Source of the DNA: Pseudalkalibacillus berkeleyi
GTDB lineage: Bacteria > Bacillota > Bacilli > Bacillales > Fictibacillaceae
Direction of reading: 5' to 3'
Length of the DNA: 50,487 bases
NCBI RefSeq assembly: GCF_021608225.1
Contig: NZ_JAKIJS010000006.1
Span: forward strand, 1-50,487
Shown here: piece after piece, positions 24,564 through 42,229 of the stretch
Position numbering within the stretch: the first letter of the stretch is position 1
Layout: the number at the start of each line of letters is the position of its first letter
Notes under the pieces: model-generated
Told to the model about the DNA's origin: nothing
What the model saw: only the letters and a program-made list of their open reading frames with translations
Databases searched by the model: none
Made by a program: the position numbers and the translations under genes

Positions 24564-24570
24564 ATGGGAC

Positions 24571-24668
24571 GGTCAATCATTGGATCACTTCAATCCTCCT
24601 GCGGCGGCGACAGCCTCCTCGTCGGATTTCCAGTGACCATCGGAGCTAACAAGGCGATTCCGCTTTTC
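24571..24668. repeat. family A structured repeat, left-truncated copy (A1)
   Basis: It shares the core GGATCACTTC...CCAGTGACC with copies at 24672 and 42090. The left end is missing and joins the preceding array directly. The right end GGCGATTCCGCTTTTC is of family B type, so this copy looks recombinant. Confidence 0.75.
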
Positions 24669-24671
24669 TAT

Positions 24672-24785
24672 TGTCTAGCTTCAGCACCCAGACACTTGGA
24701 TCACTTCAGACCTCCTGCGGCGGCGACAGCCTCCTCGTCGGTCTTCCAGTGACCTTCGTGTCTAATCGGGGTGCTTAAGCTTTTC
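24672..24785. repeat. family A structured repeat, full copy (A2)
   Basis: It runs from TGTCTAGCT to GCTTTTC. Nested helices are GCACCC / GGGTGC, AGACAC / GTGTCT, GGATCACT / AGTGACC (one bulged A) and AGACC / GGTCT around a GC-rich loop. Compared with the 42090 copy, two helices change on both sides at once. Confidence 0.85.
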
Positions 24786-24905
24786 TAATTTCTTGGGAGG
24801 ATGGAGCGGTTTCATCTGGAATAGAATAAGAAAGTTGATATGAGGAGTTATTTGTATATGCTGAATAGAATTAAGCAGCTGTTTGAAAAGGAAGGTTATG
24901 AGGAA

Positions 24906-25466
24906 ATGAAAGTCATTGCAGGTCTAGGAAATCCAGGTAGCAAATATGAAGAAACACGACATAATGTAGGGTTCAAGGTCATTGATCAACTTTCAGAATC
25001 CCTCTCCATCCCACTGAACAAACAGAAGTTCAATGGATTGTATGGCATAGGTGAAGTGAATGGACATAAACTATGTTTATTAAAGCCTTTGACCTACATG
25101 AACCGTTCAGGAGATTCTGTCGTACCTCTTATGAAGTATTATAAGGTTGAACGGGAAGATTTACTTGTCATTTATGATGATCTCGACTTAGTCCCGGGTA
25201 AGCTAAGATTACGTGAAAAGGGAAGTGCTGGTGGACATAATGGAATGAAATCCATCATACAGCATTTAGGTAGTCAAGACTTTAAACGAATTCGTATTGG
25301 CATTGGTCGGCCAGAACCAGGAGAAGCTGTTCCTGACTATGTGTTGAAAACATTTAAACCAGACCAACAAGCAAACATTAATGAAGCACTAAAACGCTCA
25401 GCAGATGCTTGTGAAAACTGGGCAGATACACCATTTTCGCAAGTTATGAACCGTTTTAATGGATGA
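24906..25466 (+). CDS. pth: peptidyl-tRNA hydrolase
   Basis: Releases peptides from drop-off peptidyl-tRNAs (spoVC in B. subtilis). LGNPGSKYEETRHNVG at the N-terminus carries the catalytic His (residue 20) and Asn (residue 10). YDDLDL holds the catalytic Asp and GSAGGHNG the substrate-binding loop. The ATG at 24906 gives the canonical MKVIAGLGNPG start; the frame extends upstream to 24840 but the extra 22 residues do not fit the family. Length is 186. Confidence 0.96.
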   Translation: MKVIAGLGNPGSKYEETRHNVGFKVIDQLSESLSIPLNKQKFNGLYGIGEVNGHKLCLLKPLTYMNRSGDSVVPLMKYYKVEREDLLVIYDDLDLVPGKLRLREKGSAGGHNGMKSIIQHLGSQDFKRIRIGIGRPEPGEAVPDYVLKTFKPDQQANINEALKRSADACENWADTPFSQVMNRFNG

Positions 25467-25525
25467 ATAGAAAAGCCCTTTAGGGACCATAATGGTAGTA
25501 TGTTATGTCACTAAGGAGGCGTAAG

Positions 25526-25756
25526 ATGTCAGTCTATTATGCATGCAAGCATTGTAATGTCCACATCGGAAAGCTAGATGTATCTTCCGTTGCGACGACA
25601 AACTTAGGTTTAGATCAACTAACAGACCAAGAAAGAGAAGAATACGTATCTTATGATGACGATGGACATGTTTATGTGAAATCTATATGTGAGGACTGTT
25701 ATGAGATGCTAAATAAAAACCCAGATTACCACGCACTGGATACATTCATACAGTAA
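25526..25756 (+). CDS. fin: anti-sigma-F factor Fin (YabK)
   Basis: A 76-residue zinc protein with CKHC near the N-terminus and CEDC near residue 57. In B. subtilis Fin antagonises SigF and so helps the switch from SigF to SigG in the forespore. The start at 25526 is chosen for AAGGAGGCG just upstream. Position between pth and mfd is conserved. The window thus holds two anti-sigma factors of the same switch, Gin and Fin. Confidence 0.95.
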   Translation: MSVYYACKHCNVHIGKLDVSSVATTNLGLDQLTDQEREEYVSYDDDGHVYVKSICEDCYEMLNKNPDYHALDTFIQ

Positions 25757-25759
25757 CAG

Positions 25760-25786
25760 CTTTGGTTTTGTAACCAAGGCATTTTT
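25760..25786 (+). terminator. terminator of pth-fin
   Basis: CTTTGGTT / AACCAAGG with a TTGT loop, then GCATTTTTT. Confidence 0.85.
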
Positions 25787-25860
25787 TGCTGTCTGAATGA
25801 GTAGCAGTTTAATGATAATGGCTCATCTCTAAAAGGTTATTTCTATAGGGAATCATGGCA

Positions 25861-25904
25861 TTCAACAATCTTTTACAAAAGCTACTATGTATACGAAACA
25901 GCCT
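25861..25904. repeat. solitary tail of the 20731 element
   Basis: TTCAACAATCTTTTACAA and GAAACAGCC align with the segments at 20869-20916 and 46285-46332, but the main body is absent. The 25787-26026 gap shows nothing else. Confidence 0.7.
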
Positions 25905-26026
25905 TGATCATAGAAATACACGATTGATTTATACAAAGAATTGCATATTTCAAGAATAATATAGGCAACAAGATTTAATAGATGGGAAATTATTACGCCC
26001 ATTCCTACAGGGAGGGAGATTATGCA

Positions 26027-29000
26027 ATGCAAGGTTTATTGAACTATTTTTGTGATAATGACGATTTTCAATCCCTGATTACAGGCATGTCTGAAGGGCT
26101 CAGCGAACAACTCGTTTCAGGTTTATCCAACTCTTCTAGAACGTTATTGATGGCTTGTTTAAACAGAGCAGATGATCGTTCTCAGCTCGTGGTCACGCAT
26201 AATTTATTTCAAGCTCAGAAGCTTTATGAAGACCTCGTTTCATTGGTAGGAGAGGAGAAGGTGCACCTCTATCCAGTAAATGAACTAACTTCAGCAGAAA
26301 TTGCCATCGCAAGTCCTGAATTAAAGTCTCAAAGAATTGACGTATTAAATCAGCTATCAGGACACGGCAGAGGGAACATTATCATTACACCTATTGCTGG
26401 TTTAAGACGAATGATTCCACCCCCACATGTTTGGAGTGCCAGCCAATTTACACTTCAAGTGGGAACGGATATAGATCTGGATCAGGTGAAGAACAAGTTA
26501 GTTGCAATGGGATATGAACGTTCAGATATGATCACAAGCCCAGGCGAATTTAGCATTCGTGGGGGAATTGTTGATATATTCCCTCTGACCGAGTCACAGC
26601 CACTTAGAATTGAGCTCTTCGATACTGAAGTCGATTCGATTAGATATTTCGACGTTGAAACGCAACGTTCTGCTGATCAATTACAAGAAATAAAGGTAGG
26701 CCCAGCAGAAGAAATTATCCTTTTCCCGGAACATTTTGATCAAGCTGTACAAAATGTCGAACTTGGACTATCTAGGTCTCTTCAGAAAATAAAAGATAGT
26801 GGTGTGAAAGAGAAGCTAACCGAACATATCGGATACGAACTTGAACAGCTGAAACAAAAACAAACATTTCAAGGCATGTACAAATATATCTCTTGCTATT
26901 ACGATCAGCCAGCTAGTTTACTAGACTATTTACCGGATAACACACTCGTTGTCGTGGATGAAATCAGTCGAGTGCAAGAAACATCTTCAAATTTGGAAAA
27001 ACAAGAAGCAGAGTGGCACACAACCTTGTTGAACCAGGGAGAAATGTTGTCTGGTCTTACGTTAAGTCACAAGTATGAGGAATTGGTGAACCGTCCGAAC
27101 TTATTGTTCTTATACCTTTCATTATTTTTAAGACATGTACCTCACACCAATCCCCAAAATATTATCAATATGAATTGTAAGGCCATGCAGAATTTCCATG
27201 GACAATTAAACGTACTGCAATCTGAAATACAAAGATGGCACAATAGTAAGGATGCTATCGTTTTCTTAGCAGCAGATCAAGATCGAGCGAAAAGGCTAGA
27301 ACGTGTCCTTGAAGATTACAATATTGAATCAAGTTTCGTAGATGAGACCACACCTCTAACACCAGGGAAAAACCATATTATCATCGGAGATTTAAATGGT
27401 GGATTTGAATTACCGATGAGAAAGCTTGTCGTCCTAACTGAAAATGAGGTTTTTACAAAGAAAACGCGAAAGACGAGAAGACCACAAAAGGTCTCTAATG
27501 CTGAGCGTATCAAAAGTTATTCTGAATTAAAGGTCGGCGATTACGTCGTTCATATTAATCATGGTATTGGTAAATATCTTGGGATCGAGACCCTGGACAT
27601 TAATGGCGTCCATAAAGATTATATACATTTGAAATATGCTGGGGATGATAAGCTCTATGTCCCCGTCGAACAAATCGATCAAGTACAAAAGTTCGTAGGT
27701 TCAGAAGGGAAAGAACCAAAAGTATATAAGCTTGGCGGTAGTGAGTGGAAGAAGGTCAAGAGCAGGGTGCAGTCTTCTGTTCAAGATATTGCCGATGATT
27801 TGATTAAACTGTACGCCGAACGAGAAGCCTCAAAAGGGCATGCATTTTCAAAGGATGGTGGAATGCAGCAAGACTTTGAAAGTGCATTTACCTATCAGGA
27901 AACAGAGGATCAACTCCGGGCAATTGAAGAAATTAAACAAGACATGGAAAAAGAAAGACCGATGGACCGACTATTGTGCGGTGACGTTGGATATGGGAAA
28001 ACGGAAGTTGCTATTCGTGCTGCATTTAAGGCGATTAATGATGGTAAACAAGTGGCATTCCTTGTTCCAACGACAATTTTGGCGCAACAACATTACGAAA
28101 CATTCCAAGAAAGATTCTCCGAATTTCCGATTACGATCAAATCATTAAGTCGGTTCAGAACGAGAAAAGAGCAGACAGAGACGATGAAAAGCTTAAAAGC
28201 AGGAACTGTCGACATTGTGGTTGGCACACACCGGATCCTCTCAAAGGACATTCAATTTAAGGATCTTGGTTTGTTAATTATTGATGAAGAGCAACGCTTT
28301 GGTGTCACGCACAAAGAAAAGATTAAACAAATGAAAACGAACGTAGATGTCCTTACGCTTACAGCTACACCTATCCCGAGAACGTTGCATATGTCTATGC
28401 TTGGTGTTCGTGATTTATCTGTAATCGAGACACCACCAGAAAATCGATTCCCGGTGCAAACGTATGTTGTTGAATATAGTGGTGGCACCATTCGAGAAGC
28501 GATAGAGCGTGAACTTTCTAGAGGAGGGCAGGTGTACTTTCTCTATAATAAAGTTGAATCAATAGAACGAATGACAGAGGAAATTTCGCAGCTTGTTCCT
28601 GATGCTCGTGTGGCATTTGCGCATGGACAAATGCGTGAAAATGAGCTTGAATCAGTCATGATTGATTTCTTAGATGGTAATTTCGATGTACTCGTAAGTA
28701 CGACCATCATTGAAACGGGTGTAGATATACCGAACGTTAACACGTTGATCGTAAATGATGCCGATAAGATGGGCTTATCTCAGTTGTATCAGTTACGCGG
28801 TCGTGTAGGCCGGTCAAATCGTGTAGCCTATTCGTATTTCATGTATCAGCGTGACAAGGTACTTACGGAGGTCGCTGAGAAACGTCTGCAAGCCATCAAG
28901 GAATTTACAGAGTTAGGCTCAGGATTTAAAATTGCAATGCGAGACCTATCTATTCGTGGTGCGGGTAATTTATTAGGTGCACAACAGCATGGATTTATTG

Positions 29001-29563
29001 ATTCCGTCGGATTCGACTTATATTCTCAAATGCTCAAAGAAGCAATTGAAGAACGTAAAGGTGACAAACCGAAGAAGAAGGAAATTGAACTCGAACTTGA
29101 TTTGAATGTCGACGCTTATATTCCAGCATCATATATTCAAGATGAAAAGCAGAAAATTGATATGTACAAACGTTTCAAAGGAATCGAGAGCTTTGATGAC
29201 ATATTCGACCTTAATGATGAAATGGTCGACAGATTTGGAGACTATCCAGATCAAGTAGCGAATTTATTTGCGGTTGCAAGAATCAAGCTATACGCGCAAG
29301 TAGAGAAGGTAGAGAAAATCGAACAATTGAAAAATAAACAAATTCAAATGCTCTTCTCAAAGGAAACGACATTGAACATAGATGGCAGCAAGTTATTTGA
29401 TATCGTCAACAAAATTGGTCGTCATGTTAACTTGGGGATGACACAAGAACAAATCAAAGTACTTATTAACCATAGAAAAATGACAGATGAACAAATTCTT
29501 CAAACGATTGAAGATGTCCTTGAGAAAGTTCCACAAGCGAAGAAGGAAGCGGTACAAGCATAA
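26027..29563 (+). CDS. mfd: transcription-repair coupling factor Mfd
   Basis: An ATP-dependent translocase that removes stalled RNA polymerase and recruits UvrA, 1178 residues. The UvrB-like N-terminal module carries GEFSIRGGIVDIFP. The RNA-polymerase-interacting domain begins at about residue 490 (KVGDYVVHINHGIGKY). The RecG-like motor has Walker A GDVGYGKTE, the DEEQ box IDEEQRFGV and QLRGRVGRSNR. The C-terminal D7 domain closes it. The ATG at 26027, eight bases after GGGAGGGAG, replaces the longer frame start at 25982. Confidence 0.97.
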   Translation: MQGLLNYFCDNDDFQSLITGMSEGLSEQLVSGLSNSSRTLLMACLNRADDRSQLVVTHNLFQAQKLYEDLVSLVGEEKVHLYPVNELTSAEIAIASPELKSQRIDVLNQLSGHGRGNIIITPIAGLRRMIPPPHVWSASQFTLQVGTDIDLDQVKNKLVAMGYERSDMITSPGEFSIRGGIVDIFPLTESQPLRIELFDTEVDSIRYFDVETQRSADQLQEIKVGPAEEIILFPEHFDQAVQNVELGLSRSLQKIKDSGVKEKLTEHIGYELEQLKQKQTFQGMYKYISCYYDQPASLLDYLPDNTLVVVDEISRVQETSSNLEKQEAEWHTTLLNQGEMLSGLTLSHKYEELVNRPNLLFLYLSLFLRHVPHTNPQNIINMNCKAMQNFHGQLNVLQSEIQRWHNSKDAIVFLAADQDRAKRLERVLEDYNIESSFVDETTPLTPGKNHIIIGDLNGGFELPMRKLVVLTENEVFTKKTRKTRRPQKVSNAERIKSYSELKVGDYVVHINHGIGKYLGIETLDINGVHKDYIHLKYAGDDKLYVPVEQIDQVQKFVGSEGKEPKVYKLGGSEWKKVKSRVQSSVQDIADDLIKLYAEREASKGHAFSKDGGMQQDFESAFTYQETEDQLRAIEEIKQDMEKERPMDRLLCGDVGYGKTEVAIRAAFKAINDGKQVAFLVPTTILAQQHYETFQERFSEFPITIKSLSRFRTRKEQTETMKSLKAGTVDIVVGTHRILSKDIQFKDLGLLIIDEEQRFGVTHKEKIKQMKTNVDVLTLTATPIPRTLHMSMLGVRDLSVIETPPENRFPVQTYVVEYSGGTIREAIERELSRGGQVYFLYNKVESIERMTEEISQLVPDARVAFAHGQMRENELESVMIDFLDGNFDVLVSTTIIETGVDIPNVNTLIVNDADKMGLSQLYQLRGRVGRSNRVAYSYFMYQRDKVLTEVAEKRLQAIKEFTELGSGFKIAMRDLSIRGAGNLLGAQQHGFIDSVGFDLYSQMLKEAIEERKGDKPKKKEIELELDLNVDAYIPASYIQDEKQKIDMYKRFKGIESFDDIFDLNDEMVDRFGDYPDQVANLFAVARIKLYAQVEKVEKIEQLKNKQIQMLFSKETTLNIDGSKLFDIVNKIGRHVNLGMTQEQIKVLINHRKMTDEQILQTIEDVLEKVPQAKKEAVQA

Positions 29564-29570
29564 AATGTAA

Positions 29571-29598
29571 AAAAGGCAGGTTGATACCTGCTTTTTTT
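29571..29598 (+). terminator. terminator of mfd
   Basis: GCAGGT / ACCTGC with a TGAT loop and a run of T. Confidence 0.9.
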
Positions 29599-29604
29599 AT
29601 TTGT

Positions 29605-29750
29605 AAGTCCTGCGGGATAAGCGATCCAGGCGAGTCCCCACAACTACCTGTGACAATAGTTATTCGACTATGAGTAAGGATGTTCGACTAAGAACCACCT
29701 CCTGTGGTGAACATCGAAGTCAGTACATCCTGTGCGCTTTTCTTTCATTT
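29605..29750. repeat. degenerate intergenic repeat between mfd and spoVT
   Basis: CATCGAAGTCAGTACATCC near 29717 matches the 6505 element, and the right end TGCGCTTTTCTTTC resembles the family A and B ends. Short internal palindromes such as CCACCTCCTGTGG are present. Boundaries are approximate. Confidence 0.5.
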
Positions 29751-29896
29751 TTATGAAGAATTTTCCGTTTTTGGTGAATAGATTAAGTGAACGTACGGAT
29801 ACTAAAGGAAAATGAATGGTATATTTATTCATTCATACCAAGAATGCTATTGTATCTCCATTATCTTGCAACGATAGAAAGTGAGGACAACAAAGA

Positions 29897-30433
29897 ATGA
29901 AAGCCACAGGTATCGTACGTCGCATTGATGATCTTGGACGGGTCGTCATCCCTAAGGAAATTAGAAGAACCTTACGTATTCGTGAGGGGGATCCTCTTGA
30001 AATTTTCGTAGACCGCGAAGGGGAAGTCATACTTAAGAAATACTCTCCCATCAGTGAGCTTGGAGATTTTGCTCAAGAATATGCAGAGTCATTATATGAG
30101 CACACTCAACATATCGCGTTGATTTCTGATCGTGATTCTTTTATCGCGGTGGCTGGTGGAGGCAAAAAGGAGTACATGAATAAGAACATCGGTAAATTGA
30201 TTGAAAACTCGATGAATGACAGGAAAACGGTTGTCTCAACGCAAGCAACAAGTGTAGAGATTATTGATGGTAACAATGAGCCTGTATCTCATGTCATAGC
30301 TCCAATCATAGCAAATGGGGATCCCATTGGTTCGGTAGTGCTTCTTTCAAAAACGGACAAGCCTATTGGGGACATTGAACAAAAGTTATCTGAAACAGCT
30401 GCAGGATTTTTAGCGAAACAAATGGAGCAATAA
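29897..30433 (+). CDS. spoVT: stage V sporulation regulator SpoVT
   Basis: A 178-residue AbrB-type regulator of late forespore (SigG) genes. The N-terminal swapped-hairpin domain (1-50, GIVRRIDDLGRVVIPKEIRR) closely resembles AbrB at 8584, and a GAF-like domain follows (about 55-178). GAATG-15-CATACCA (29814-29840) resembles a SigG promoter, but the spacing is short of ideal. AGTGAGGA precedes the ATG. Confidence 0.97.
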   Translation: MKATGIVRRIDDLGRVVIPKEIRRTLRIREGDPLEIFVDREGEVILKKYSPISELGDFAQEYAESLYEHTQHIALISDRDSFIAVAGGGKKEYMNKNIGKLIENSMNDRKTVVSTQATSVEIIDGNNEPVSHVIAPIIANGDPIGSVVLLSKTDKPIGDIEQKLSETAAGFLAKQMEQ

Positions 30434-30594
30434 GTGAAGGGGCTGTCCAAAAAGTCAGTGAACACTGATTTTCTGGAAGCTCTATTTTTTTTGGCTTTTC
30501 ATAAGGATACGTGAAGCCGAAATAAATACCTCAAGTCACAGCGATCGCCAGGTGTTCTGAATAACCGTTTGTAATTGTGTAGCCTCTTTATTTC

Positions 30595-30613
30595 ATATCA
30601 CTCGTGATATAAT
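30595..30613 (+). promoter_or_regulatory. inverted repeat overlapping an extended -10 before yabM
   Basis: ATATCAC TC GTGATAT (7-bp arms, 30595-30610) overlaps TGATATAAT (TG-extended -10, 30605-30613). This could be a repressor operator at the promoter of the yabM-yabN unit; no -35 is clear. Confidence 0.4.
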
Positions 30614-30720
30614 GGGGCTATTATTGTACTTAAAAAAAGCTTTTTTAGGCAATACTTTAGATTTCTTGTAGGTTTATGAATAAAGTATATGTGTTCTTTA
30701 TCGATTTAGGCGGTGTCACA

Positions 30721-32322
30721 ATGTTAGATCAAACGGATGTACAGAAAACGTTTTGGAGAGGAACACTTGTCATATCTGGCGCTGCATTGATTGTCAAAGT
30801 GTTAAGTGCCTTTTATCGGATTCCTTTTCAAAATATCGCTGGTGACCTTGGATTATATGTGTATCAACAAGTATATCCATTCTATGCGATAGCATTTGCA
30901 TTAAGTTTATATGGTTTTCCGCTCATTATATCTAAAATCATTTCTGAAAATGAGGGGAGACAAGCAAGAGACGCACTAACGACAACGTTTGTTGGTTTGT
31001 GTACTTTTTTTGTAATTGTCTTTCTCATCTTGTACCATTCTGCGGATCACATTGCGAAAGGTATGAACGATCCGATGCTCGTTGGACCGTTAAGGATGGC
31101 CTCTTTTTCTTTTCTATTTGTTCCGTTTTTATCTGTAATGAGAGGATACTACCAAGGTGAAAAAGATATGACACCGACAGCTGTCTCTCAAATTGCAGAA
31201 CAAATGATTAGAGTAGGTCTTATTTTAATTTTTACGATTTATCTCGTCACGAACGGAGCCGATCGCTATTTAGTAGGAAGTGGGGCTGTATTTGGAGGTT
31301 TAGCCGGTAGTGTAGTTGCTATCTTTATATTAGGTTTATTTTTGAAGAAACAATCAAAACCTATATTGGGGATTCATTTTCTGCCAATTCGTCAGTCAAC
31401 TGCATTGATTGGAACCATTTTAAAAGGTGGACTTGCGATATGTATTACAGCCGTGATGTTTGCATTGTTTCAGCTTGTTGACGCTTTACAAGTTGTTCCT
31501 GGACTGCAATCAAGCGGTATGGATTCTTTAGATGCAAAAGTGAGTAAAGGTGTATTTGACCGGGGCCAGCCATTACTGCAATTAGGAACGGTTTTGGCGA
31601 CTGCAATGGCTTTACCGCTTATTCCATTCATTGCGAAAGCGAATCAAAGTAATGATCGAAAGCGAGTCATTGAGTTTGCTGGTCAGTCATTAAAATTTAG
31701 CTTCATCGTTGGTGGTGCTGCTGCGATTGGATTAGCAGTCATTATTGAACCGACGAATGTGTTCTTATATGAGGATCAAAATGGTTCTTTAGCTCTTGGT
31801 ATTCTCGGGGTGGCGATCTTATTTGGATCGATTGCGATTACGTCTTCAGCGATTCTACAAGGGCTTGGAAAAATTAGTTTTCCTGTACTTTTCATCTTAA
31901 TTTCACTAGGAATTAAAGGGCTGTTGAACTTATGGTTCATTCCTCATTTCGGCATTACCGGGGCCGCAATTACGACTGTAATGAGTGCCGCCTTTGTTGC
32001 GATTTGTAACTTAATGATGGTCCAAAAGCTGACCAATGTATTTCAAGTCCATCGATTTTCTAGTTTGAAAGTTGTATTTGCCTTGATTTTAATGGCAGTC
32101 AGTACATTTCTATGGAAAGAATCCTTGTTACTCTTTCAGTCAGGTAATGAACGATTAGTTGCCGGGGTTATTGCGTTATCAAGTGCGGGAATAGGTGCTG
32201 CTGTTTATTTACTGGTACTTATGTATCAAAATGTTTGGAACCGAGACGAACTTCGGATGCTACCGAAGGGCGAATACTTAATTAAATGGTTCTACAGAGA
32301 TAGGAGAGGTGAGAATGGGTAA
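30721..32322 (+). CDS. yabM: polysaccharide/lipid flippase YabM (MOP superfamily, SpoVB-like)
   Basis: An integral membrane protein of 533 residues with about 14 hydrophobic segments and the conserved N-terminal region FYRIPFQNIAGDLGLYVYQQVYPFY of the SpoVB/MurJ-like exporters. It may flip lipid-linked cell-wall precursors; the substrate is not known for B. subtilis YabM. The ATG at 30721 is preferred for length; an in-frame ATG at 30676 would add 15 residues. The end overlaps yabN by 8 bases. Confidence 0.88.
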   Translation: MLDQTDVQKTFWRGTLVISGAALIVKVLSAFYRIPFQNIAGDLGLYVYQQVYPFYAIAFALSLYGFPLIISKIISENEGRQARDALTTTFVGLCTFFVIVFLILYHSADHIAKGMNDPMLVGPLRMASFSFLFVPFLSVMRGYYQGEKDMTPTAVSQIAEQMIRVGLILIFTIYLVTNGADRYLVGSGAVFGGLAGSVVAIFILGLFLKKQSKPILGIHFLPIRQSTALIGTILKGGLAICITAVMFALFQLVDALQVVPGLQSSGMDSLDAKVSKGVFDRGQPLLQLGTVLATAMALPLIPFIAKANQSNDRKRVIEFAGQSLKFSFIVGGAAAIGLAVIIEPTNVFLYEDQNGSLALGILGVAILFGSIAITSSAILQGLGKISFPVLFILISLGIKGLLNLWFIPHFGITGAAITTVMSAAFVAICNLMMVQKLTNVFQVHRFSSLKVVFALILMAVSTFLWKESLLLFQSGNERLVAGVIALSSAGIGAAVYLLVLMYQNVWNRDELRMLPKGEYLIKWFYRDRRGENG

Positions 32323-34419: not shown

Positions 34420-34470
34420 CTGCGTGGAGCGAGTAAGACATTCTCGAATAAAACGGGGTTAATTTAAAAG

Positions 34471-34567: not shown

Positions 34568-34633
34568 GGTTTGTTAGAAAAGAGGAATCGCCAAGGTAGC
34601 TCGGATGTCATTGGATACCGACAATTAAAGCTT

Positions 34634-34663
34634 GTTCTATTTAATCCTGTGTGCTCATACATT
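34634..34663 (+). promoter_or_regulatory. SigE promoter of yabP
   Basis: GTTCTATT (34634-34641), a 14-base spacer and CATACATT (34656-34663). The -10 fits the SigE consensus CATACANT, and yabP is a mother-cell gene in B. subtilis. Confidence 0.75.
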
Positions 34664-34691
34664 TGTACAAACTATGTTTGGAGGGGAGCAC

Positions 34692-35006
34692 ATGGATTCG
34701 TACTACGATTATAATGGTTCCAATTACAATAAACCTGAAACAGCACCGGATCATGATGTCAAGATGAGAGGTAGGAAAGCACTTGATATAACAGGTGTGA
34801 AGCAAGTAGAAAGCTTTGATAATGAGGAATTTTTGCTGGAAACCTCAATGGGATTCCTCGCAGTTAGAGGCTACAACTTAAAGATGAAGAACCTAAACCT
34901 AGAACAAGGATTAGTTTCAATTGAGGGAAAGGTGTACGACCTTGTTTATTTAGATCAGCAACAAGGGGAAAAAGCTAAAGGTTTTTTTAGCAAGCTGTTC
35001 AAATGA
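34692..35006 (+). CDS. yabP: spore cortex formation protein YabP
   Basis: A 104-residue protein of the YabP/YqfC family, needed with YabQ for spore cortex formation in B. subtilis. The conserved core is GRKALDITGVKQVESFDNEEFLLET and GNL-like RGYNLKMKNLNLE. The ATG at 34692 follows TTGGAGGGG; the longer frame begins before the predicted SigE transcript. It overlaps yabQ by four bases (ATGA). Confidence 0.93.
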   Translation: MDSYYDYNGSNYNKPETAPDHDVKMRGRKALDITGVKQVESFDNEEFLLETSMGFLAVRGYNLKMKNLNLEQGLVSIEGKVYDLVYLDQQQGEKAKGFFSKLFK

Positions 35007-35605
35007 GCTTGACCGTCCAATTCTATACGATCCTGGCGATGATCGGAAGTGGGATTTGGATTGGAGCAGCCCTTGACACGTATCACAGATTCCAGCCTAG
35101 GGACAAGAAGTGGAACTGGTTAAGGTTTGTAAATGATATCGTCTTCTGGGTCTTACAAGCTCTTCTCATTTTCTATGTATTACTACAAGTGAATCACGGT
35201 GAAGTACGCGTCATTATTTTTCTAGCATTACTTTGTGGATTTGCCTGTTATCAAAGTTTATTGCAAAGAGGCTACAAAAAATTATTGGAGTACTTGATTA
35301 CATTTTTCGTAGGGGTGACAAGAATGATTAAGAAATTAGTTTCCACTTTTGTCATCCATCCCATAAAAGTCATATTGAATCTCCTTCTTACCTTGAGTAA
35401 AATGATAGGTAGACTGCTATCATCTGTCCTTCTATTCATTTTAGGTATTCTTCTCTTCCCCTTTAAAATCATCGGTGTTTTCCTTCTTCAAAAAGTTTTG
35501 AAAAGGATTCAAGCGAAAATGCTAACAAAACTAAAGGGAAAAGCAGGAATATGGAAGAAGCCAACGAATAAAGTGAAAGACTGGATAGGGAAATTCAAAA
35601 GGTAA
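35003..35605 (+). CDS. yabQ: spore cortex membrane protein YabQ
   Basis: A 200-residue polytopic membrane protein with about four to five hydrophobic segments (residues about 5-25, 40-60, 68-85, 125-155) and a basic C-terminal tail. B. subtilis YabQ localises to the outer forespore membrane and is required for cortex synthesis. Its start is coupled to yabP by ATGA, and it shares the SigE promoter. Confidence 0.92.
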   Translation: MSLTVQFYTILAMIGSGIWIGAALDTYHRFQPRDKKWNWLRFVNDIVFWVLQALLIFYVLLQVNHGEVRVIIFLALLCGFACYQSLLQRGYKKLLEYLITFFVGVTRMIKKLVSTFVIHPIKVILNLLLTLSKMIGRLLSSVLLFILGILLFPFKIIGVFLLQKVLKRIQAKMLTKLKGKAGIWKKPTNKVKDWIGKFKR

Positions 35606-35619
35606 AAAGGGGGCTCAAG

Positions 35620-36003
35620 ATGGTCCAACGAAATGACAAGGTAACAGCGTTAAACGAAAACATCATGAATCAGGAACGAAAAAAACAGGAACGTGCACAT
35701 CGTAGAAAGAAAGGGCTTTACAGGCGTTTAGTGGTTTTCGGTGTACTGGTTGTCATCATGTTTACCGTCATGATTTCCACACTTACCTCACAATCTACTG
35801 TCATTGCAGAAAAGAAGGAAGAACGACAAAAAGTAGAAAAGCGTCTAGAAGAAGTTAAACAAGAAAAATCACAACTAAGCGAAGAAGTGAATAAACTACA
35901 AGACCCAGATTATATTGGTGAGGTAGCAAGAAGAGATTATAATATGTCCAAACCTGGGGAAACGATCTTCAAACTTCCTAAAAAGAAAGAGGAGTCTCGT
36001 TGA
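35620..36003 (+). CDS. divIC: cell division protein DivIC (FtsB-like)
   Basis: A bitopic divisome protein of 127 residues. A basic cytoplasmic N-terminus precedes one membrane segment (about 36-58), then an extracellular coiled coil rich in Glu and Lys (about 60-95), and the conserved DPDYIGEVARRDYNMSKPGE. It partners with FtsL and DivIB in septal wall synthesis. AAAAAGGGGG precedes the ATG. It follows the sporulation pair yabPQ, as in B. subtilis. Confidence 0.95.
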   Translation: MVQRNDKVTALNENIMNQERKKQERAHRRKKGLYRRLVVFGVLVVIMFTVMISTLTSQSTVIAEKKEERQKVEKRLEEVKQEKSQLSEEVNKLQDPDYIGEVARRDYNMSKPGETIFKLPKKKEESR

Positions 36004-36076
36004 CCATATATTTTGGGGCATGTATAATAAAGTAAATTTGATTTATTCATCTTTTTAAGGAGGAGCAATTTTTACA

Positions 36077-36502
36077 ATGACAATTGAAGTAGGCAGCAAA
36101 TTGAAGGGAAAAGTAACAGGCATTACCCATTTTGGAGCATTTGTCGAGCTGCCAGATGGTATCACCGGTTTAGTCCACATTAGTGAGGTTGCCGATAATT
36201 ATGTCAAGGACATTAACGAACACCTAACTGTCGGAGATGAAGTTGAGGTAAAGGTCATCAATGTTGATAATGATGGCAAAATTGGACTTTCAATCAAGAA
36301 AGCGAAAGACCAACCACCAAGACAGAATCGCAGGCCAGACCGCCCTCGTGGAAAGGGAGGCAAACCTAGAAGACAGCAAAATGAAGTCGTTTCATTTGAA
36401 GATAAGTTGAATCGTTTCTTGAAGGATAGTGAAGATCGCTTATCCACTATAAAAAGGCAAACCGAATCAAAACGTGGAGGACGCGGTGCACGCCGAGGGT
36501 AA
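36077..36502 (+). CDS. yabR: S1 domain RNA-binding protein YabR
   Basis: A 141-residue protein with one S1 domain (residues about 5-75: LKGKVTGITHFGAFVELPDG and GLVHISEVADNYV). A basic Arg/Gly/Lys-rich linker and tail follow. Related to the S1 module of polynucleotide phosphorylase; RNA binding is inferred and the role is unknown. AAGGAGGAG precedes the ATG by ten bases. Confidence 0.93.
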   Translation: MTIEVGSKLKGKVTGITHFGAFVELPDGITGLVHISEVADNYVKDINEHLTVGDEVEVKVINVDNDGKIGLSIKKAKDQPPRQNRRPDRPRGKGGKPRRQQNEVVSFEDKLNRFLKDSEDRLSTIKRQTESKRGGRGARRG

Positions 36503-36572
36503 TTCATCATCTGCTGCTTACCGATTGTAGTAAAATCAGCTCTAATCGGAATATGCAAGCAAAAATAGAAGA

Positions 36573-36601
36573 AGGACTGACAGCGATGTTAGTCTTTTTT
36601 T
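36573..36601 (+). terminator. terminator of the yabP-yabR cluster
   Basis: GACTGACA / TGTTAGTC (one G-T pair, loop GCGA), then seven T. Confidence 0.88.
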
Positions 36602-36603
36602 AT

Positions 36604-36731
36604 GCGTTAAGAAGGTATATAATTTTTCAGATTCAGATTTACTCGACGTAATTGAAAATTCCTGTATTAAGTATAAGCGCAACTAAGGCTCACCCTACGC
36701 CAAGGCTTGGCTTTGCCAAGTTTTCTTTATT
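36604..36731. repeat. solitary copy of the 122-bp repeat of 24241
   Basis: It contains GCGTTAAGAAGGTATATAA, CTCGACGTAA, AAGTATAAGCGCAACTAAGG and AAGTTTTCTTTAT in the same order as the array. It carries the perfect hairpin CTTGGCTTTGCCAAG where the array has weaker CTTGG / CTAAG. It lies just upstream of the tRNA promoter. Confidence 0.85.
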
Positions 36732-36757
36732 TGCCACCAACAAATCCAAAAAAACTA

Positions 36758-36786
36758 TTGACTAGGTTTTGATTATCTTGTATTAT
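36758..36786 (+). promoter_or_regulatory. SigA promoter of the tRNA-Met/tRNA-Glu unit
   Basis: TTGACT, a 17-base spacer and TATTAT, ending 31 bases before tRNA-Met. Confidence 0.85.
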
Positions 36787-36817
36787 TCTTGTTGTGTCTT
36801 TAAAACATATTGTTTAT

Positions 36818-36894
36818 GGCGGTGTAGCTCAGCTGGCTAGAGCGTACGGTTCATACCCGTGAGGTCGGGGGTTCGATCCCCTCCGCCGCTACCA
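36818..36894 (+). tRNA. tRNA-Met (CAU), elongator
   Basis: A 77-base cloverleaf with encoded CCA. Anticodon stem TACGG / CCGTG encloses loop TTCATAC (anticodon CAT), and the T arm is GGGGG TTCGATC CCCTC. The 5' end GGCGGTG pairs normally at position 1 (G-U), unlike an initiator tRNA. Confidence 0.97.
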
Positions 36895-36903
36895 TTTTTA
36901 TAG

Positions 36904-36945
36904 GATTTTAAAAAGAGCAACGAATGATAAACGTCGAATTTCTAC
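36904..36945 (+). repeat. 42-bp direct repeat, copy 1
   Basis: Begins GATTTTAAAAAGAGCAACG nine bases after tRNA-Met. It is identical over 42 bases to 37059-37100. Confidence 0.9.
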
Positions 36946-37058
36946 GTTACTCTGATTTTCCGGTTCTCATGTATAAACGACATACATTCCGATCCTCAAA
37001 TTTATCGTGCCTTGAACTTCTAGTTTCTGATTCGTCTACTTTTTAACTTATAATTTAA

Positions 37059-37100
37059 GATTTTAAAAAGAGCAACGAATGATAAACGTCGAATTTCTAC
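37059..37100 (+). repeat. 42-bp direct repeat, copy 2
   Basis: Identical to 36904-36945, 155 bases downstream and 21 bases before tRNA-Glu. Confidence 0.9.
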
Positions 37101-37121
37101 TTATATCATAAATATAAATTA

Positions 37122-37196
37122 GGCCCCTTGGTCAAGTGGTTAAGACACCGCCCTTTCACGGCGGTAACACGGGTTCGAATCCCGTAGGGGTCACCA
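37122..37196 (+). tRNA. tRNA-Glu (UUC)
   Basis: A 75-base cloverleaf with encoded CCA. Anticodon stem CCGCC / GGCGG encloses CTTTCAC (anticodon TTC). Acceptor GGCCCCT pairs with AGGGGTC. Confidence 0.97.
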
Positions 37197-37211
37197 ATAC
37201 ATATAATGAGT

Positions 37212-37242
37212 AACTGTCCTTCATGTAAGGGACAGTTTTTTT
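37212..37242 (+). terminator. terminator of the tRNA unit
   Basis: AACTGTCC and GGACAGTT around a short loop, then seven T. Confidence 0.93.
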
Positions 37243-37598
37243 GTGCTGAAAAATGGTTGAGAGTCTTCTTGTTTTTAATAGAAAGAAGATACAAAATGCC
37301 TAATCCCAACATATATTCTAGTGATGCTCAAAATAAGTGGTGAAAATATTACAGAGCAGGCGTCAACCCATCGACATATGACTCCATTTATGTAGAATCA
37401 TATAAACTTTCTTCCATCCTGTAGTCCCTTCGCCATAATTCTCATTTCTAATTCACCTCTTACAAATAATGGGTGCGTATAGACGTCCCTAAGGATAAGG
37501 GCAAAGTATCTATCCCTATTTGATATTTAAAAAATTGAATCATATTGACGCTCGGCATCGTAACGCGTCGAGAAGTTTTTTTCCCTCCGCCTTACCTT
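37243..37598. other. gene-free stretch before spoIIE
   Basis: No credible ORF, RNA gene or repeat is seen. CGTCGAG at 37566 is a 5-of-7 match to the Spo0A box upstream of the spoIIE promoter. Confidence 0.5.
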
Positions 37599-37631
37599 TT
37601 GACAAAATATGAAAATGGTATGTGGTTAAAT
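37599..37631 (+). promoter_or_regulatory. spoIIE promoter with 21-bp spacing
   Basis: TTGACA (37599-37604) and TTAAAT (37626-37631) are separated by 21 bases. The B. subtilis spoIIE promoter has the same long spacing and is a Spo0A~P-activated SigA promoter. Confidence 0.75.
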
Positions 37632-37666
37632 AGACAACACAAATCTATTAACGGGTGGTGCGGGGA

Positions 37667-40156
37667 ATGATGCAAAAGGTTGGAGCCCATAGCAACCAAA
37701 TACTGAGAAAGTTTGTTCTTGTTGAAAGGTTGAAAAACAATATTTCCATGCATACAAGAGAAGCAATCATGAGAGTCCAGCGCGTTCTCATGCATTGGAG
37801 TTTAGTGTTATTTTGTACAGGCTTCTTACTTGGACGAGCCTTTATACTTACCGAATTATCTCCATTTGCCATTCCATTCTTTGGTGCAGTCTTATTATTA
37901 AAGCGTGAGCGAGCAGGAGTGGCAGCGATCGCATTGTTAGCAGGTGCATTAACAACCTTTGATAAAACCGGGTTGTTCATCTCCGTTGGCCTAGCCGTCT
38001 TCTTCGTTATAAATGCCATTACTACTAATCTAGTAAAACAAAGTTTCAAAATCCTACCGTATACGGTTGTAGCGGCAAGCTTCATAACTCGGATGAGTTT
38101 GCTAACTTTTGCCTCAGAGTCAATTACTACAGGGACAATGTTAATGGTTGCAATAGAAGCGGGATTAAGCGGTATACTCACGCTGATCTTCTTACAAAGC
38201 ATCCCTCTCCTTTCTATAAAGAAAATTCAACACTCCTTAAAAAATGAAGAGATTGTATGTTTTATTATCCTGCTCGCATCGGTTATGACAGGCACGATCG
38301 GTTGGCAAGTATACGATTTATCACTTGAACATATTTTGTCACGCTATCTCGTGTTAATCTTCGCTATTGTCGGTGGAACTGCGATTGGCGCAACAGTAGG
38401 GGTAGTAACAGGTCTTATATTAGGTCTTGCTAATATTGCGAGTCTCTATCAAATGAGTTTACTCGCATTTTCGGGGTTGTTAGGTGGTCTCCTAAAAGAA
38501 GGGAAGAAATTGGGGGTTGGTGTCGGTCTCTTTATAGGAACGATGTTAATTGGACTCTATGGCAATGAATCAGGCATGCTTTTCAATAGTTTTCTCGAAT
38601 CCTGCGTAGCGGTCGGTCTCTTTCTTCTAACGCCGAACAAAGCTATTTCAAAAATCTCTCGCTACATACCCGGGACGAAAGAATATAACCAAGAACAACA
38701 ACAGTATTTACGCAAGGTGAGGGACGTTACAGCAAACCGCGTAGAGCAATTCTCTCATTTGTTCCAAACCTTATCGAATAGTTTCTTAAATACGAGTGCT
38801 ACAACGATGTTGGAGGAAGAAGGGAAACGAGAGTTAGATATGTTTTTGAGTAATATCACTGAAAAAACATGTCAAAACTGCTTCAAGAAACGACATTGTT
38901 GGGTGAATAACTTTGAAGAGACGTATGGTTACATGGCAAATATTATGACCGAAACGACACCGAATGGAACATTGAAAGATCGAGGGTTACAAAAGGATTG
39001 GGAGCGACACTGCGTGCGGTCAAAGAAAGTCATTGATACGATCCAATATGAGCTCGGTCAATATCATGCGAACATCAAACTGAAACAGCAAGTGAAGGAA
39101 AGTAGAAGGCTTGTTGCAGAACAACTCCATGGTGTATCGCAAGTTATGGATAATTTCGCAAAAGAAATTCAACGTGAGAGAGAAAATCATCAAATACAAG
39201 AAGAACAAGTGAAATTAGCTTTAGATGATATTGGACTTGAGGTTGGAAACATTGAAATATATAACCTAGACAAGGGTAGCATTGACATCGAGATGAGTAT
39301 TCCATACTGCAATGGACGAGGAGAAGCCGAAAAGGTAATTGCTCCATTATTATCAGACATATTGGATGAAGCAATTGTCGTGAAAAATGAAGAATGCGCA
39401 GCTTATCCAAACGGTTACTGCCACGTCGTTTTCCGTTCATCACAAAACTTTGTGATTGAGACAGGTGTCGCAAGTGCAGCTAAAGGGGGCGCTTGGGTGT
39501 CTGGGGATAGTCATTCGACAATCGAGCTTGGAGTTGGAAAGTACGCTGTTGCGATTAGCGATGGTATGGGGAACGGGGAACGTGCTCATCTCGAGAGCAA
39601 TGAGACGTTAAAGCTTTTGCAGCAAATCCTACAGTCGGGGATCGATGAAACAACAGCAATTAAGTCTGTTAACTCAATTCTCTCACTAAGGACAACTGAT
39701 GAAATCTTTTCAACATTAGATCTTGCAATGATTGACCTCCAAGATGCCGCGGTACGATTTTTGAAGATCGGTTCAAGTCCAAGCTTCGTTAAACGAGCAG
39801 ATCAAGTCAGAATGATAGAAGCAAGTAATCTACCAATGGGCATTATTGAGGAGTTTGACGTTGAGGTGGTGAGTGATCAGTTAAAAGCAGGAGACTTCCT
39901 CATCATGATGAGCGATGGTATTTTCGAAGGTCCGAAGAATGTAGAAAATAAAGAAGCTTGGATCAAGCGTAAAATACGAGAAATCCATTCTGATGACCCT
40001 CAACTGATAGCTGACCTCCTTTTAGAAGAGGTCATTCGTACAGATTGTGGTCATATTGATGATGATATGACCGTCGTCGTAACGAAATTAAACCGCAATA
40101 TTCCTAAATGGTCGACGATCAGGTATCAGAATAAGGGGGAGCAGAAACAGGCTTAA
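37667..40156 (+). CDS. spoIIE: stage II sporulation protein E, serine phosphatase
   Basis: A membrane phosphatase that dephosphorylates SpoIIAA and so activates SigF in the forespore; it also helps polar septum formation with FtsZ. About ten membrane segments fill residues 35-325. The central regulatory and oligomerisation region includes CQNCFKKRHCW. A C-terminal PP2C-type domain (about 590-825) carries metal-binding aspartates in AISDGMGNGERAH, MMSDGI and DDDMTVVV. The start at 37667 follows GGTGGTGCGGGG; ATG at 37670 is equivalent. Length is 829. Confidence 0.97.
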   Translation: MMQKVGAHSNQILRKFVLVERLKNNISMHTREAIMRVQRVLMHWSLVLFCTGFLLGRAFILTELSPFAIPFFGAVLLLKRERAGVAAIALLAGALTTFDKTGLFISVGLAVFFVINAITTNLVKQSFKILPYTVVAASFITRMSLLTFASESITTGTMLMVAIEAGLSGILTLIFLQSIPLLSIKKIQHSLKNEEIVCFIILLASVMTGTIGWQVYDLSLEHILSRYLVLIFAIVGGTAIGATVGVVTGLILGLANIASLYQMSLLAFSGLLGGLLKEGKKLGVGVGLFIGTMLIGLYGNESGMLFNSFLESCVAVGLFLLTPNKAISKISRYIPGTKEYNQEQQQYLRKVRDVTANRVEQFSHLFQTLSNSFLNTSATTMLEEEGKRELDMFLSNITEKTCQNCFKKRHCWVNNFEETYGYMANIMTETTPNGTLKDRGLQKDWERHCVRSKKVIDTIQYELGQYHANIKLKQQVKESRRLVAEQLHGVSQVMDNFAKEIQRERENHQIQEEQVKLALDDIGLEVGNIEIYNLDKGSIDIEMSIPYCNGRGEAEKVIAPLLSDILDEAIVVKNEECAAYPNGYCHVVFRSSQNFVIETGVASAAKGGAWVSGDSHSTIELGVGKYAVAISDGMGNGERAHLESNETLKLLQQILQSGIDETTAIKSVNSILSLRTTDEIFSTLDLAMIDLQDAAVRFLKIGSSPSFVKRADQVRMIEASNLPMGIIEEFDVEVVSDQLKAGDFLIMMSDGIFEGPKNVENKEAWIKRKIREIHSDDPQLIADLLLEEVIRTDCGHIDDDMTVVVTKLNRNIPKWSTIRYQNKGEQKQA

Positions 40157-40293
40157 TTGATTTAAATGCTTATTGAAAGATAAGGAGATTCTAGCAATAT
40201 GCGAATGATAATACGAGACTCACCAAAACTAGTATAAATCCCTTCTCGGTTGACCATTATGGTAATAACAATTTGAGAGAGGGGATTTTTCGC

Positions 40294-41034
40294 ATGAGTA
40301 AAGGGACATTACGACAAATCTTACTGATTACAGATGGATGCTCGAATCAAGGTGAAGACCCAGTTGCCATTGCGGCATTAGCCCGTGAGAAAGGCGTTGC
40401 AATCAACGTCATTGGAATCTTATCGAAAAATGAAGCATACGGTGAGCATGGTTTGAAGGAAGTTGAAGATATAGCAATGAGCGGTGGTGGCGTTAGTCAA
40501 ATTGTATATGCAAATCAGCTTGCCCATACGGTGAAAATGGTTACACAAAAGGCGATGACGCAAACGATTCACGGTATGATCAATAAGGAGCTTACACACA
40601 TTTTAGGTGATGATCAACAAATGGAGGATCTTCCTCCAGATAAACGGGGACAAGTGATGGAAGTTGTCGATGAAATCGGCGAGACTGTTAACTTGGAAGT
40701 ATTGATCTTAGTTGATATTTCGGCGAGTATGGATGACAAATTGCCGACTGTTCAAGAATCGCTCATAGACTTATCCATCTCATTGAACTCAAGAGGTGGA
40801 CAGAATGTGTTCTCCATATTCGCATTTCCTGGTAAAAAACAATCAGTAGAAAAACTTCTAGATTGGACACCACAATTAGATACACTAGGGAAGTTATTCA
40901 AGAAAATCACAACGGGTGGTATTACGCCAACAGGACCGGCACTTCAAGAAGCGCTTGAACAGTTTTCGGAAAGGGGTTCTAAGCGCAAGTTTTTAGGTGA
41001 AGAAGATGAATACTTCGAAGAATCCGGAAGTTAA
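40294..41034 (+). CDS. yabS: YabS, VWA-domain protein
   Basis: A 246-residue von Willebrand factor A-type protein. A metal-site-like DISASMDD (residues about 145-152) begins the second half, with GGITPTGPALQEAL supplying the conserved Thr. The N-terminus also reads ILLITDGCSNQGEDP, resembling the later part of a VWA fold. Function unknown. GAGAGGGG precedes the ATG at 40294. It overlaps yabT by 29 bases, so YabS and the kinase YabT are probably coupled. Confidence 0.9.
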   Translation: MSKGTLRQILLITDGCSNQGEDPVAIAALAREKGVAINVIGILSKNEAYGEHGLKEVEDIAMSGGGVSQIVYANQLAHTVKMVTQKAMTQTIHGMINKELTHILGDDQQMEDLPPDKRGQVMEVVDEIGETVNLEVLILVDISASMDDKLPTVQESLIDLSISLNSRGGQNVFSIFAFPGKKQSVEKLLDWTPQLDTLGKLFKKITTGGITPTGPALQEALEQFSERGSKRKFLGEEDEYFEESGS

Positions 41035-41986
41035 TCTATCGCCAGGTGATCTCATAATAGGTAAGTGGAATCAGAATCATTACACGATTCTTCGGGAATT
41101 GGGTTCTGGAGCAACCGGGACGGTCTATCTGGCAAAGAGTAAACAGTCGAAGGTGGCTGTAAAAGTAAGTCATGATACGCTGTCGATTACCTCAGAAGTA
41201 AACGTGTTGAAGCATCTATCTAAGGTCCAGGGAAAAACGCTTGGACCTTCTTTCGTCGAAATGGATGATTGGAGGACGCCTAAAGGTACATTCCCATTCT
41301 ATGTAATGGAGTATGTACAGGGGGAGTCACTTTTCGTATTCATGCGTCAAAGGAAAGAAGAATGGTTTGGCATCCTGATTCTGCAACTATTAAGAGATTT
41401 GGCTGACCTTCATAAGTCAGGTTGGGTCTTTGGTGATTTGAAACCCGATAACTTACTCATTACAGGACCTCCGCCGAAAATCCGCTGGCTTGATGTAGGT
41501 GGTACGACAATGATGGGAAGAGCGATCAAGGAGTATACGGAATTCTTTGACCGTGGTTATTGGGGGATGGGATCGAGAAAGGCGGAACCGACCTATGACT
41601 TATTTGCTGTCGCTATGATTATAATGAACTTCGCCTACCCGAAACGGTTTGATAAGAAAGAAGGTGGGTGGCAACAGCTTCAGAAGTTGATTGATCATAA
41701 CCGTTCGCTCAAAAAGTACAGAAAAATCTTATATAAAGCGCTACATGGACAATATGCAACAGCAGATGCAATGAAGGATGATTTGCTGGAATATTATTCT
41801 AGAAAATCATCATCACAAGCGATACCGAAAAAAAGCCCCACCCCAAAACCAACTCCTAAAGGTTCGACTAAAGGACGTTATCAAAGAAAGAAATCAAAAC
41901 GTAAAAGGCAAATTACAGAAACGATGCTCATCTTTCTGTTCTTACTAGCTTTTTACATTGTCTATTTAATCGGAAATACGGTGTAA
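41006..41986 (+). CDS. yabT: sporulation Ser/Thr protein kinase YabT
   Basis: A Hanks-type kinase of 326 residues with one C-terminal membrane segment (about 306-324). Glycine-rich ELGSGATGTVYL, catalytic Lys in VAVKVSH and the catalytic loop VFGDLKPDNLLI are present. The metal motif reads LDVGG instead of the usual DFG. A basic Lys/Arg-rich stretch before the membrane segment could bind DNA, as reported for B. subtilis YabT, which phosphorylates RecA during spore development. AGGTGAAG precedes the ATG at 41006, inside yabS. Confidence 0.93.
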   Translation: MNTSKNPEVNLSPGDLIIGKWNQNHYTILRELGSGATGTVYLAKSKQSKVAVKVSHDTLSITSEVNVLKHLSKVQGKTLGPSFVEMDDWRTPKGTFPFYVMEYVQGESLFVFMRQRKEEWFGILILQLLRDLADLHKSGWVFGDLKPDNLLITGPPPKIRWLDVGGTTMMGRAIKEYTEFFDRGYWGMGSRKAEPTYDLFAVAMIIMNFAYPKRFDKKEGGWQQLQKLIDHNRSLKKYRKILYKALHGQYATADAMKDDLLEYYSRKSSSQAIPKKSPTPKPTPKGSTKGRYQRKKSKRKRQITETMLIFLFLLAFYIVYLIGNTV

Positions 41987-41996
41987 GCTCTTACCA

Positions 41997-42005
41997 TGTT
42001 ATAAT
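41997..42005 (+). promoter_or_regulatory. extended -10 promoter before tilS
   Basis: TGTTATAAT is a perfect TGn-extended -10, 225 bases before the tilS start. The family A repeat at 42090 would lie in the transcribed leader. Confidence 0.5.
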
Positions 42006-42089
42006 GACCTTACATTTAGGAAGCGAGGTGATGACGCTCGTTTCTTTGGATAGATAAGAAAGTATAATTTTTTGGTCACTTAGATGTAA

Positions 42090-42203
42090 TGTCTAGCTTC
42101 AGCACCCAGTCATTTGGATCACTTCAGTCCTCCTGCGGCGGCAACAGCCTCCTCGTCGGACTTCCAGTGACCTTCATGACTAAGAAGGGTGCTTGCGCTT
42201 TTC
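42090..42203. repeat. family A structured repeat in the tilS leader (A3)
   Basis: TGTCTAGCT to GCGCTTTTC. Helices are GCACCC / GGGTGC, AGTCAT / ATGACT, GGATCACT / AGTGACC and AGTCC / GGACT. It ends 13 bases before the tilS Shine-Dalgarno. An ORF call that extends tilS upstream to 42089 runs through this element and is wrong. Confidence 0.88.
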
Positions 42204-42229
42204 TTTACATATATAAAGGAGACTTCTCC

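Follow-up and report, generated by a model that had tools for sequence, protein, structure and literature searches.

The window analysed here, a stretch of 50,487 nucleotides (nt) that constitutes contig C6 of the 3.5 Mb Pseudalkalibacillus berkeleyi genome, contains three plus-strand copies of an intergenic hairpin repeat, designated family A. Copies 1 and 2 both lie in the gap between ctc and pth, and copy 3 is flanked by tilS and a PrkT-like kinase gene. Copy 1 (24571..24670) is truncated at its 5' side, without the TGTCTAGC end and the outer helix; its right end is of the GGCGATTCCGCTTTTC type, a 3' end known from another core family, and a covariance model matched it at 24561-24669. Copy 2 (24672..24785) is complete by sequence, fold and covariance-model match and directly follows the right end of copy 1. 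Copy 3 (42090..42203), also complete, is preceded by a leader (GATAAGAAAGTATAA...GATGTAA, 42053..42089) that was read from the sequence and defined by comparison of copies, and it ends 26 bases 5' of the likely tilS start codon at 42230.

A sequence-only reading of the window had described two helices in these copies whose sides change together. Its inner helix was found as described in all three (AATCC:GGATT at 24571, AGACC:GGTCT at 24672 and AGTCC:GGACT at 42090), and both complete copies had its outer helix (AGACAC:GTGTCT in copy 2, AGTCAT:ATGACT in copy 3), which the truncated copy lacks. Compared with dinucleotide shuffles, copy 2 (z = -5.4) and copy 3 (z = -3.6) folded well, and copy 1 folded no better than its shuffles (z = -0.6; 46 of 200 at least as good). 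The P. berkeleyi genome gave 30 BLAST matches to window positions 24560-24790, 32 matches at E ≤ 1 to the covariance model, which was built from seven P. berkeleyi copies, and 31 matches to the 5'-end pattern (≤1 mismatch) versus one for a reversed control pattern. The copies had no Rfam match, either in a scan of the window at gathering scores or in one of 41900-42350 at E ≤ 1.

The element proved larger than the three copies first noticed, with a leader, tandem arrays and a position behind terminators. When complete it consists of a leader of ~35 nt (AAAGATAAGAAAGTATAAAA...GATGAAGTGA) and one or more head-to-tail hairpin units of ~115 nt, each spanning TGTCTAGCTNCAGCGCC to GGCGCTTNCGCTTTTC as one long imperfect hairpin with conserved internal loops. 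The commonest joint between units is CTTTTCTTGA|TGTCTAGC, and the leader AAAGATAAGAAAGTATAAAAATTTTGNNNGCGATGAAGTGA often stands 5' of the first unit in an array. The 133 distinct copies of the genus comprise 44 tandem and 89 first-in-array copies; the leader motif was found at 42 of the latter versus 1/89 and 2/89 in two control windows, and at 3 of 12 first copies from other Bacillales loci (0 and 0 in controls). Leader segment ATAAGAAAG and the right end CTTTTCTTAT form an imperfect inverted repeat, and the right end itself, a hairpin followed by CTTTTCTT, resembles the insertion target described below. A minimal version, made up of leader, short hairpin and right end, adjoins the terminator 3' of ctc in one genome (G035).

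Some units differ from this plan. In a variant from P. berkeleyi and relatives (L181:430-600, L191:719-888, L047:1501-1681), the apex is longer by ~55 nt (TCGACACATTGATTTAG...GAACCGAACTTTGTTTGGTTCGAGCC). At nine loci (L012, L015, L035, L072, L193, L203, L215, L218 and L236) units of family A or of the related family B lie within another repeat (CACTCCTGCGGG...CCCGCGGAAAGGGAGTG), a hairpin nested in a hairpin; L162 has that repeat uninterrupted.

Covariation was counted in two alignments. The family A alignment held 101 matches (98 distinct; E ≤ 1e-12) from 77 chosen sources, taken from the window and a set of 240 loci; the superfamily alignment, which included other Bacillales families, held 82 matches (77 distinct; E ≤ 0.001) from 49 sources. 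Both were fitted to the model structure and lean towards it. In family A, standard pairs made up 95.5% of 3318 cells and both sides had changed in 22 of 34 pairs; double-change cells numbered 205, compared with 53.3 (standard deviation (sd) 10.4) after shuffling and 14-44 in slid structures. Because kinship of sequences inflates such counts, a tree-aware null was used, in which changes were scattered randomly over a FastTree tree. It gave a mean of 3.7 same-branch compensations and never more than 10 in 300 simulations, whereas the alignment had 39. In the superfamily, 32 of 34 pairs covaried (27.8 in shuffles), with 699 double-change cells versus 182.5 (sd 12.0) shuffled and 82-121 slid. The pairing of family A units is thus maintained, and the compensatory changes first noted in three copies are confirmed in many, at counts far above the shuffled, slid and tree-aware controls.

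Such double changes could also arise without any selected function if template switching or gene conversion between the arms of a long quasi-palindrome altered both sides together, a caveat that the sequence-only reading had itself raised. Direct Watson-Crick-to-Watson-Crick switches on one branch were indeed common, numbering 51 in family A and 274 in the superfamily, as they were in the RNA of the signal recognition particle (SRP), which had 140; and the G.T counts given below, equal to or below A.C, are what a symmetric DNA process would leave. The internal loops speak otherwise. Their apposed bases are mostly pyrimidine against pyrimidine (T.C at columns 26/157 in 97 of 98 rows, T.C at 36/147 in 95, C.T at 51/132 in 95), and 12 of 15 apposed combinations were canonical in just 0-9% of rows, that is, non-canonical in 91-100%; the exceptions were 10/180 (54% canonical), 15/175 (81%, really a pair) and 27/156 (23%). 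Copying from arm to arm would have erased these persisting mismatches, and homogenisation alone is therefore unlikely to explain the covariation. The two ends are also unlike each other, and they recur in other families of the order. Conversion may add to the double changes inside the helices.

Whether the pairing is that of RNA or of DNA was judged from the two wobble mismatches. Selection on RNA tolerates G.U and not A.C, whereas a DNA duplex or cruciform treats both alike, as they are the same mismatch seen on opposite strands. On the plus strand, family A had a G.T:A.C ratio of 130:70 in its 3318 cells, and 42:44 without the two pairs in which either mismatch exceeded 10%. The superfamily ratio was 90:65 of 2517 cells, or 22:50 without three such pairs. 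As a control, SRP RNA of the same order (29 of 30 loci, from 29 genomes; one locus on a short contig was left out) gave 475:7 of 2522 cells, and 23:2 after the same rule had removed 29 pairs. Counted as tree events, with pairs above 25% removed, the ratios were 36:42 for family A, 19:48 for the superfamily and 57:5 for SRP RNA. Because the structures permit G.U and not A.C, any bias of the method would run against the equality of G.T and A.C. The covariation of family A is not RNA-like, and the tests point to a DNA hairpin, since the excess of G.U over A.C, strong in SRP RNA of the order, is absent. Of the earlier proposal that a structure is under selection, either as RNA or as hairpin DNA, the covariation was borne out and the DNA alternative favoured. 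The A.C excess of the superfamily would fit, and could mean, folding of the bottom strand; this is treated as a hint only, because family A alone shows no A.C excess (p = 0.57).

Structural covariation is often taken as evidence of RNA, and here it would mark a DNA hairpin. Comparing the ratio of G.T to A.C with that of a control RNA from the same genomes is a cheap way to tell the two apart and could help to clean screens for candidate RNAs.

It is accordingly very unlikely that the units are structured RNAs (small RNAs, untranslated-region elements or mRNA stabilisers) whose fold is selected after transcription, even though copies 2 and 3 fold strongly, covariation is present and a crude caller of open reading frames (ORFs), run on 77 arrays, placed an ORF upstream of 74, co-oriented in 52. 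Besides a G.T count that does not exceed A.C as it does in SRP RNA, and copies without Rfam matches, a promoter scan made no plus-strand call at the leader of copy 3, where two weak minus-strand matches overlap the leader and the region as a whole had 3 promoter-like matches versus 2.1 in shuffles. Many copies, moreover, are located behind an already existing terminator.

This position was examined for the 42 leader-bearing copies. A T-run was found within 25 nt 5' of the leader in 30 of them, with a stable hairpin as well in 25 of those, and 8 of the 42 had upstream sequence matching a preceding element's right end, a group that may overlap the first. In the mirror test on the right side, an A-run was found in 5 and an A-run with a hairpin in none.

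Presence and absence were then read from a comparison of 450 kb from each of two genomes of the genus, G005 and G007, with 30 and 33 arrays; aligned blocks in the first 180 kb were 88-98% identical, except for one match at 67%. Thirteen of the 63 array rows, picked because the counterpart genome had only a short gap there, were examined as candidates (site 334479 lies outside these). Seven had clean empty alleles (G007 C7 180390, 364464, 368693, 403592, 416723 and 444196; G005 C1 121497), three had a partial element in the shorter allele (411461, 65038, 342653) and three were not cleanly readable (354602, 147063, 408669). A terminator-like hairpin was present in both alleles at all seven clean sites; at six the fold of the empty allele ranged from -10.2 to -17.7 kcal/mol, and at the seventh (416723) the hairpin GGGAGAT...ATCTCCC was read by eye. 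The extra DNA lies just 3' of the terminator hairpin and in its orientation, with the leader beginning no more than about 10 nt from the T-run and the end falling in or shortly after a CTTTTCTT-type right end. At six sites its length of 157-226 bp approximates that of a leader with a single unit; at 368693, the site of a truncated unit, it is 119 bp. Over the seven sites there was no consistent target-site duplication, the exact cut base being ambiguous. One orthologous site had three units in G007 versus one in G005, and at the ctc-pth loci of 24 genomes the family A profile found units in P. berkeleyi only; the ctc-pth gap of G003, also of the genus, has a right-end remnant. Both presence and unit number thus differ between related genomes. 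In the same comparison, sites 95336 and 149507 were found to be compound repeats.

Alternatively, the repeats might owe their retention mainly to a role as spare or bidirectional transcription terminators, with recombination spreading them. In favour of this, the right end has a hairpin with CTTTTCTT after it, a terminator scan made a call at 24651-24666, in the right end of copy 1 (the region had 2 calls versus 0.7 in shuffles), and the gene upstream of many first copies is co-oriented with them. We consider retention on these grounds highly improbable, as the units stand behind terminators that are already complete, in the empty allele too, copy 3 was not called by the scan, and termination needs neither a leader of ~35 nt nor fixed ends.

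The reading that we favour, with a probability of roughly 0.6, is that family A is a non-autonomous mobile DNA-hairpin element, composed of a leader and head-to-tail units and served in trans. A trans-supplied enzyme would recognise the folded DNA, and the target would consist of a hairpin and a following T. The right end (hairpin and CTTTTCTT) would mimic that target, so that elements would also land behind one another. HUH-type enzymes recognise hairpins and leave no duplication, and their right ends resemble the target; because of these properties a single-strand-acting HUH/Y1-type transposase would be the first guess for the enzyme.

The search for such an enzyme covered 100 genomes, 70 of which had matches to query R1 at E ≤ 0.001. 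End-pattern counts per genome reached 334, 190, 164 and 110; because reversed-pattern controls reached 11, low counts mean little. Among the matches listed for the core pattern were Pseudalkalibacillus decolorationis, P. salsuginis, Alkalihalobacillus sp. YIM B00296 and a strain labelled Rossellomorea aquimaris. Many genomes across the order do combine the common 5' end with the 3' end that the sequence-only reading had linked to other Bacillaceae. Among 72,556 plasmid records there was one partial match, covering 65% of the query at 79.7% identity, and among 50,697 phage records there was none; one IMG/VR contig (L379) has the superfamily 5'-end pattern. Judged by eye, the superfamily units at two loci (L108, L115) seem to lie in the spacer, near the 3' terminus of the 16S rRNA gene.

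A Y1 match was present in all 20 genomes with at least 20 pattern matches, and also in 89 of the 100 genomes overall, and copy number correlated weakly with Y1 count (Spearman rho = 0.29, p = 0.004, kinship ignored). The single Y1 gene found in P. berkeleyi is RAYT-like (263 aa, L039:1078-1869; NCBIfam NF047646 at 66.7 bits, below the cut-off of 80). It sits among GGGTC...GACCC repeats, palindromes of the GGGTCGAGGGACCTGTCCC type, and together they are a separate repetitive extragenic palindrome (REP) system. Of 22 RAYT-type places, nine loci, from eight relatives, were examined: seven had repeated palindromic motifs such as GTGCCAGGCAC or GGGGACGGTTCTC, one had another tandem repeat and one had none. 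Across ten RAYT loci the family A profile found a unit at one (L444, about 430 nt 5' of the gene) and units on both sides at none. Thirty Y1 loci were also scanned, and none held an IS200/IS605 Y1 transposase with family A ends. Only L151 had leader, left end and right end, as a complete unit beside an IS200-like gene that has hairpin ends of its own; elsewhere there were scattered single fuzzy matches.

Several observations count against a mobile element served in trans. No gene that would mobilise it came to light at the loci examined: RAYT was rejected as the dedicated partner because the examined RAYT loci have other palindromes, and G045 and G017 are among the carriers without any Y1 match. 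No long version of the element was seen by eye among left ends without a nearby right end, no systematic ORF search having been made between distant ends. By the motif used, 47 of the 89 first copies lack the leader. Site 180390 can be read as a 3-base T duplication, site 364464 has only a weak T-run (CTCTTTGTC), and no terminator was called 5' of the leader of copy 3. The seven allelic differences, compared without an outgroup, may each be a gain or a precise loss of leader and unit. Finally, the structure used for counting was derived from the seven P. berkeleyi copies, and the alignments were fitted to it.

Group IIC introns insert behind the stem-loops of intrinsic terminators, as described in the portion of PMC7161350 on their targets, and this shared, unusual target of hairpin and T-run would suit copying of the element by a reverse transcriptase like theirs, as would the distribution within the genus, where the copy-rich G002, G005 and G007 hold 33 of 37 group II intron matches; such copying is very unlikely, since copy number showed no rank correlation with group II intron count over the 100 genomes (rho = 0.09, p = 0.39), group II intron matches are absent from G066 (190 pattern matches), G052 (83), G080 (65) and P. 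berkeleyi (33), and the RNA pairing signature is absent. On these counts group II introns were rejected as the partner, copy number not being correlated. The resemblance is one of target and not of anatomy: group IIC introns are ribozymes with a reverse transcriptase, whereas family A units are ~115 nt long and had no Rfam match. No domain V was matched on the copies or in the P. berkeleyi genome, where a search with stricter filters gave no RF00029 match.

Set beside known systems, family A is best filed as a variant of the kind formed by REPs and miniature inverted-repeat transposable elements (MITEs), and not as a member of the REP, MITE or IS200/IS605 families or, provisionally, of the attC or bcr families. 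IS200/IS605 elements have hairpin ends, insert 3' of a short target without duplication and have target-like right ends. Family A may share these features with them and their miniature derivatives, but no such transposase with family A ends was found at the 30 Y1 loci. Its ends are only partly complementary (ATAAGAAAG with CTTTTCTTAT) and the seven sites have no consistent duplication, unlike classical DDE-type MITEs; nor does it tolerate G.U over A.C as a structured RNA family does. REPs, in the portion of PMC3733652 that deals with them, are likewise palindromes that occur between genes in high copy number and bear an unpaired tag on one side. Head-to-head dimers are their prevailing form, and stems are 5-13 bp long in GTAG and 8-9 bp in CGTC REPs, whereas the family A hairpin is ~115 nt long, has conserved internal loops and forms head-to-tail arrays behind a leader. 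The CGTC REPs, whose tag is often TGTC, seem from that portion to be without a dedicated transposase (PMC3733652). Family A did not flank the RAYT genes at the loci examined, as the short palindrome of a RAYT would.

The bcr1-bcr3 repeats of the Bacillus cereus group, of which bcr1 is listed with a conserved structure, are intergenic, 100-400 bp long, MITE-like and copy-variable in the sections of PMC6542083, PMC3446304 and PMC2267715 devoted to them; family A is likened to them by description, not by sequence. They are reported there as specific to that group and tied to a TTTAT motif (PMC6542083). Integron attC sites, alike by description only, are DNA hairpins of conserved structure that RNA motif searches can pick up, according to the relevant part of PMC8632094. 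Bhal-1, a 74-bp family of Bacillus halodurans compared by the description in PMC2267715 and not by sequence, might be a relative. No description of the present repeats was found in the literature, including for the strings CTTGCGCTTTTC and TGTCTAGCT, although text searches are weak for sequences.

A wider and more tentative proposal, for which we would not claim even odds, is that family A belongs to a Bacillales-wide class of miniature elements that would be mobile in the form of folded DNA and would recognise structure, not sequence, their target of terminator hairpin and T-run being rebuilt at their own right end and their enzyme acting in trans. As the right end rebuilds hairpin and T, each insertion would make the next target and arrays would grow behind terminators. 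If terminator targeting is true, family A is one of the few elements whose target is a shape, and its sites are clean and countable ones for seeking the enzyme.

Other repeats and features were noted in the window. Tandem copies of another hairpin repeat (AAGTATAAGTGCAACTAAAGCTC...GCTAAGTTTTCTTTAT) lie at 24400-24560, immediately 5' of copy 1, with a layout that matches that of family A (left box, hairpin, TTTTCTT end); a relative of this repeat (ACTAAGGCTCAGCC...AAGTTTTCTTTAT) is present in G005 and absent from G007 at one site. At the contig end, a plus-strand unit of family B, with the same ends and architecture and a different core, lies at 50245..50365 in a head-to-tail array, and the next unit (50369..50487, plus strand) is cut by the contig end. 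The array (50150-50487) runs past that end and may have broken the assembly there. A Bacillaceae-1 RNA (RF01690) was matched at 29672-29736 with 45.7 bits.

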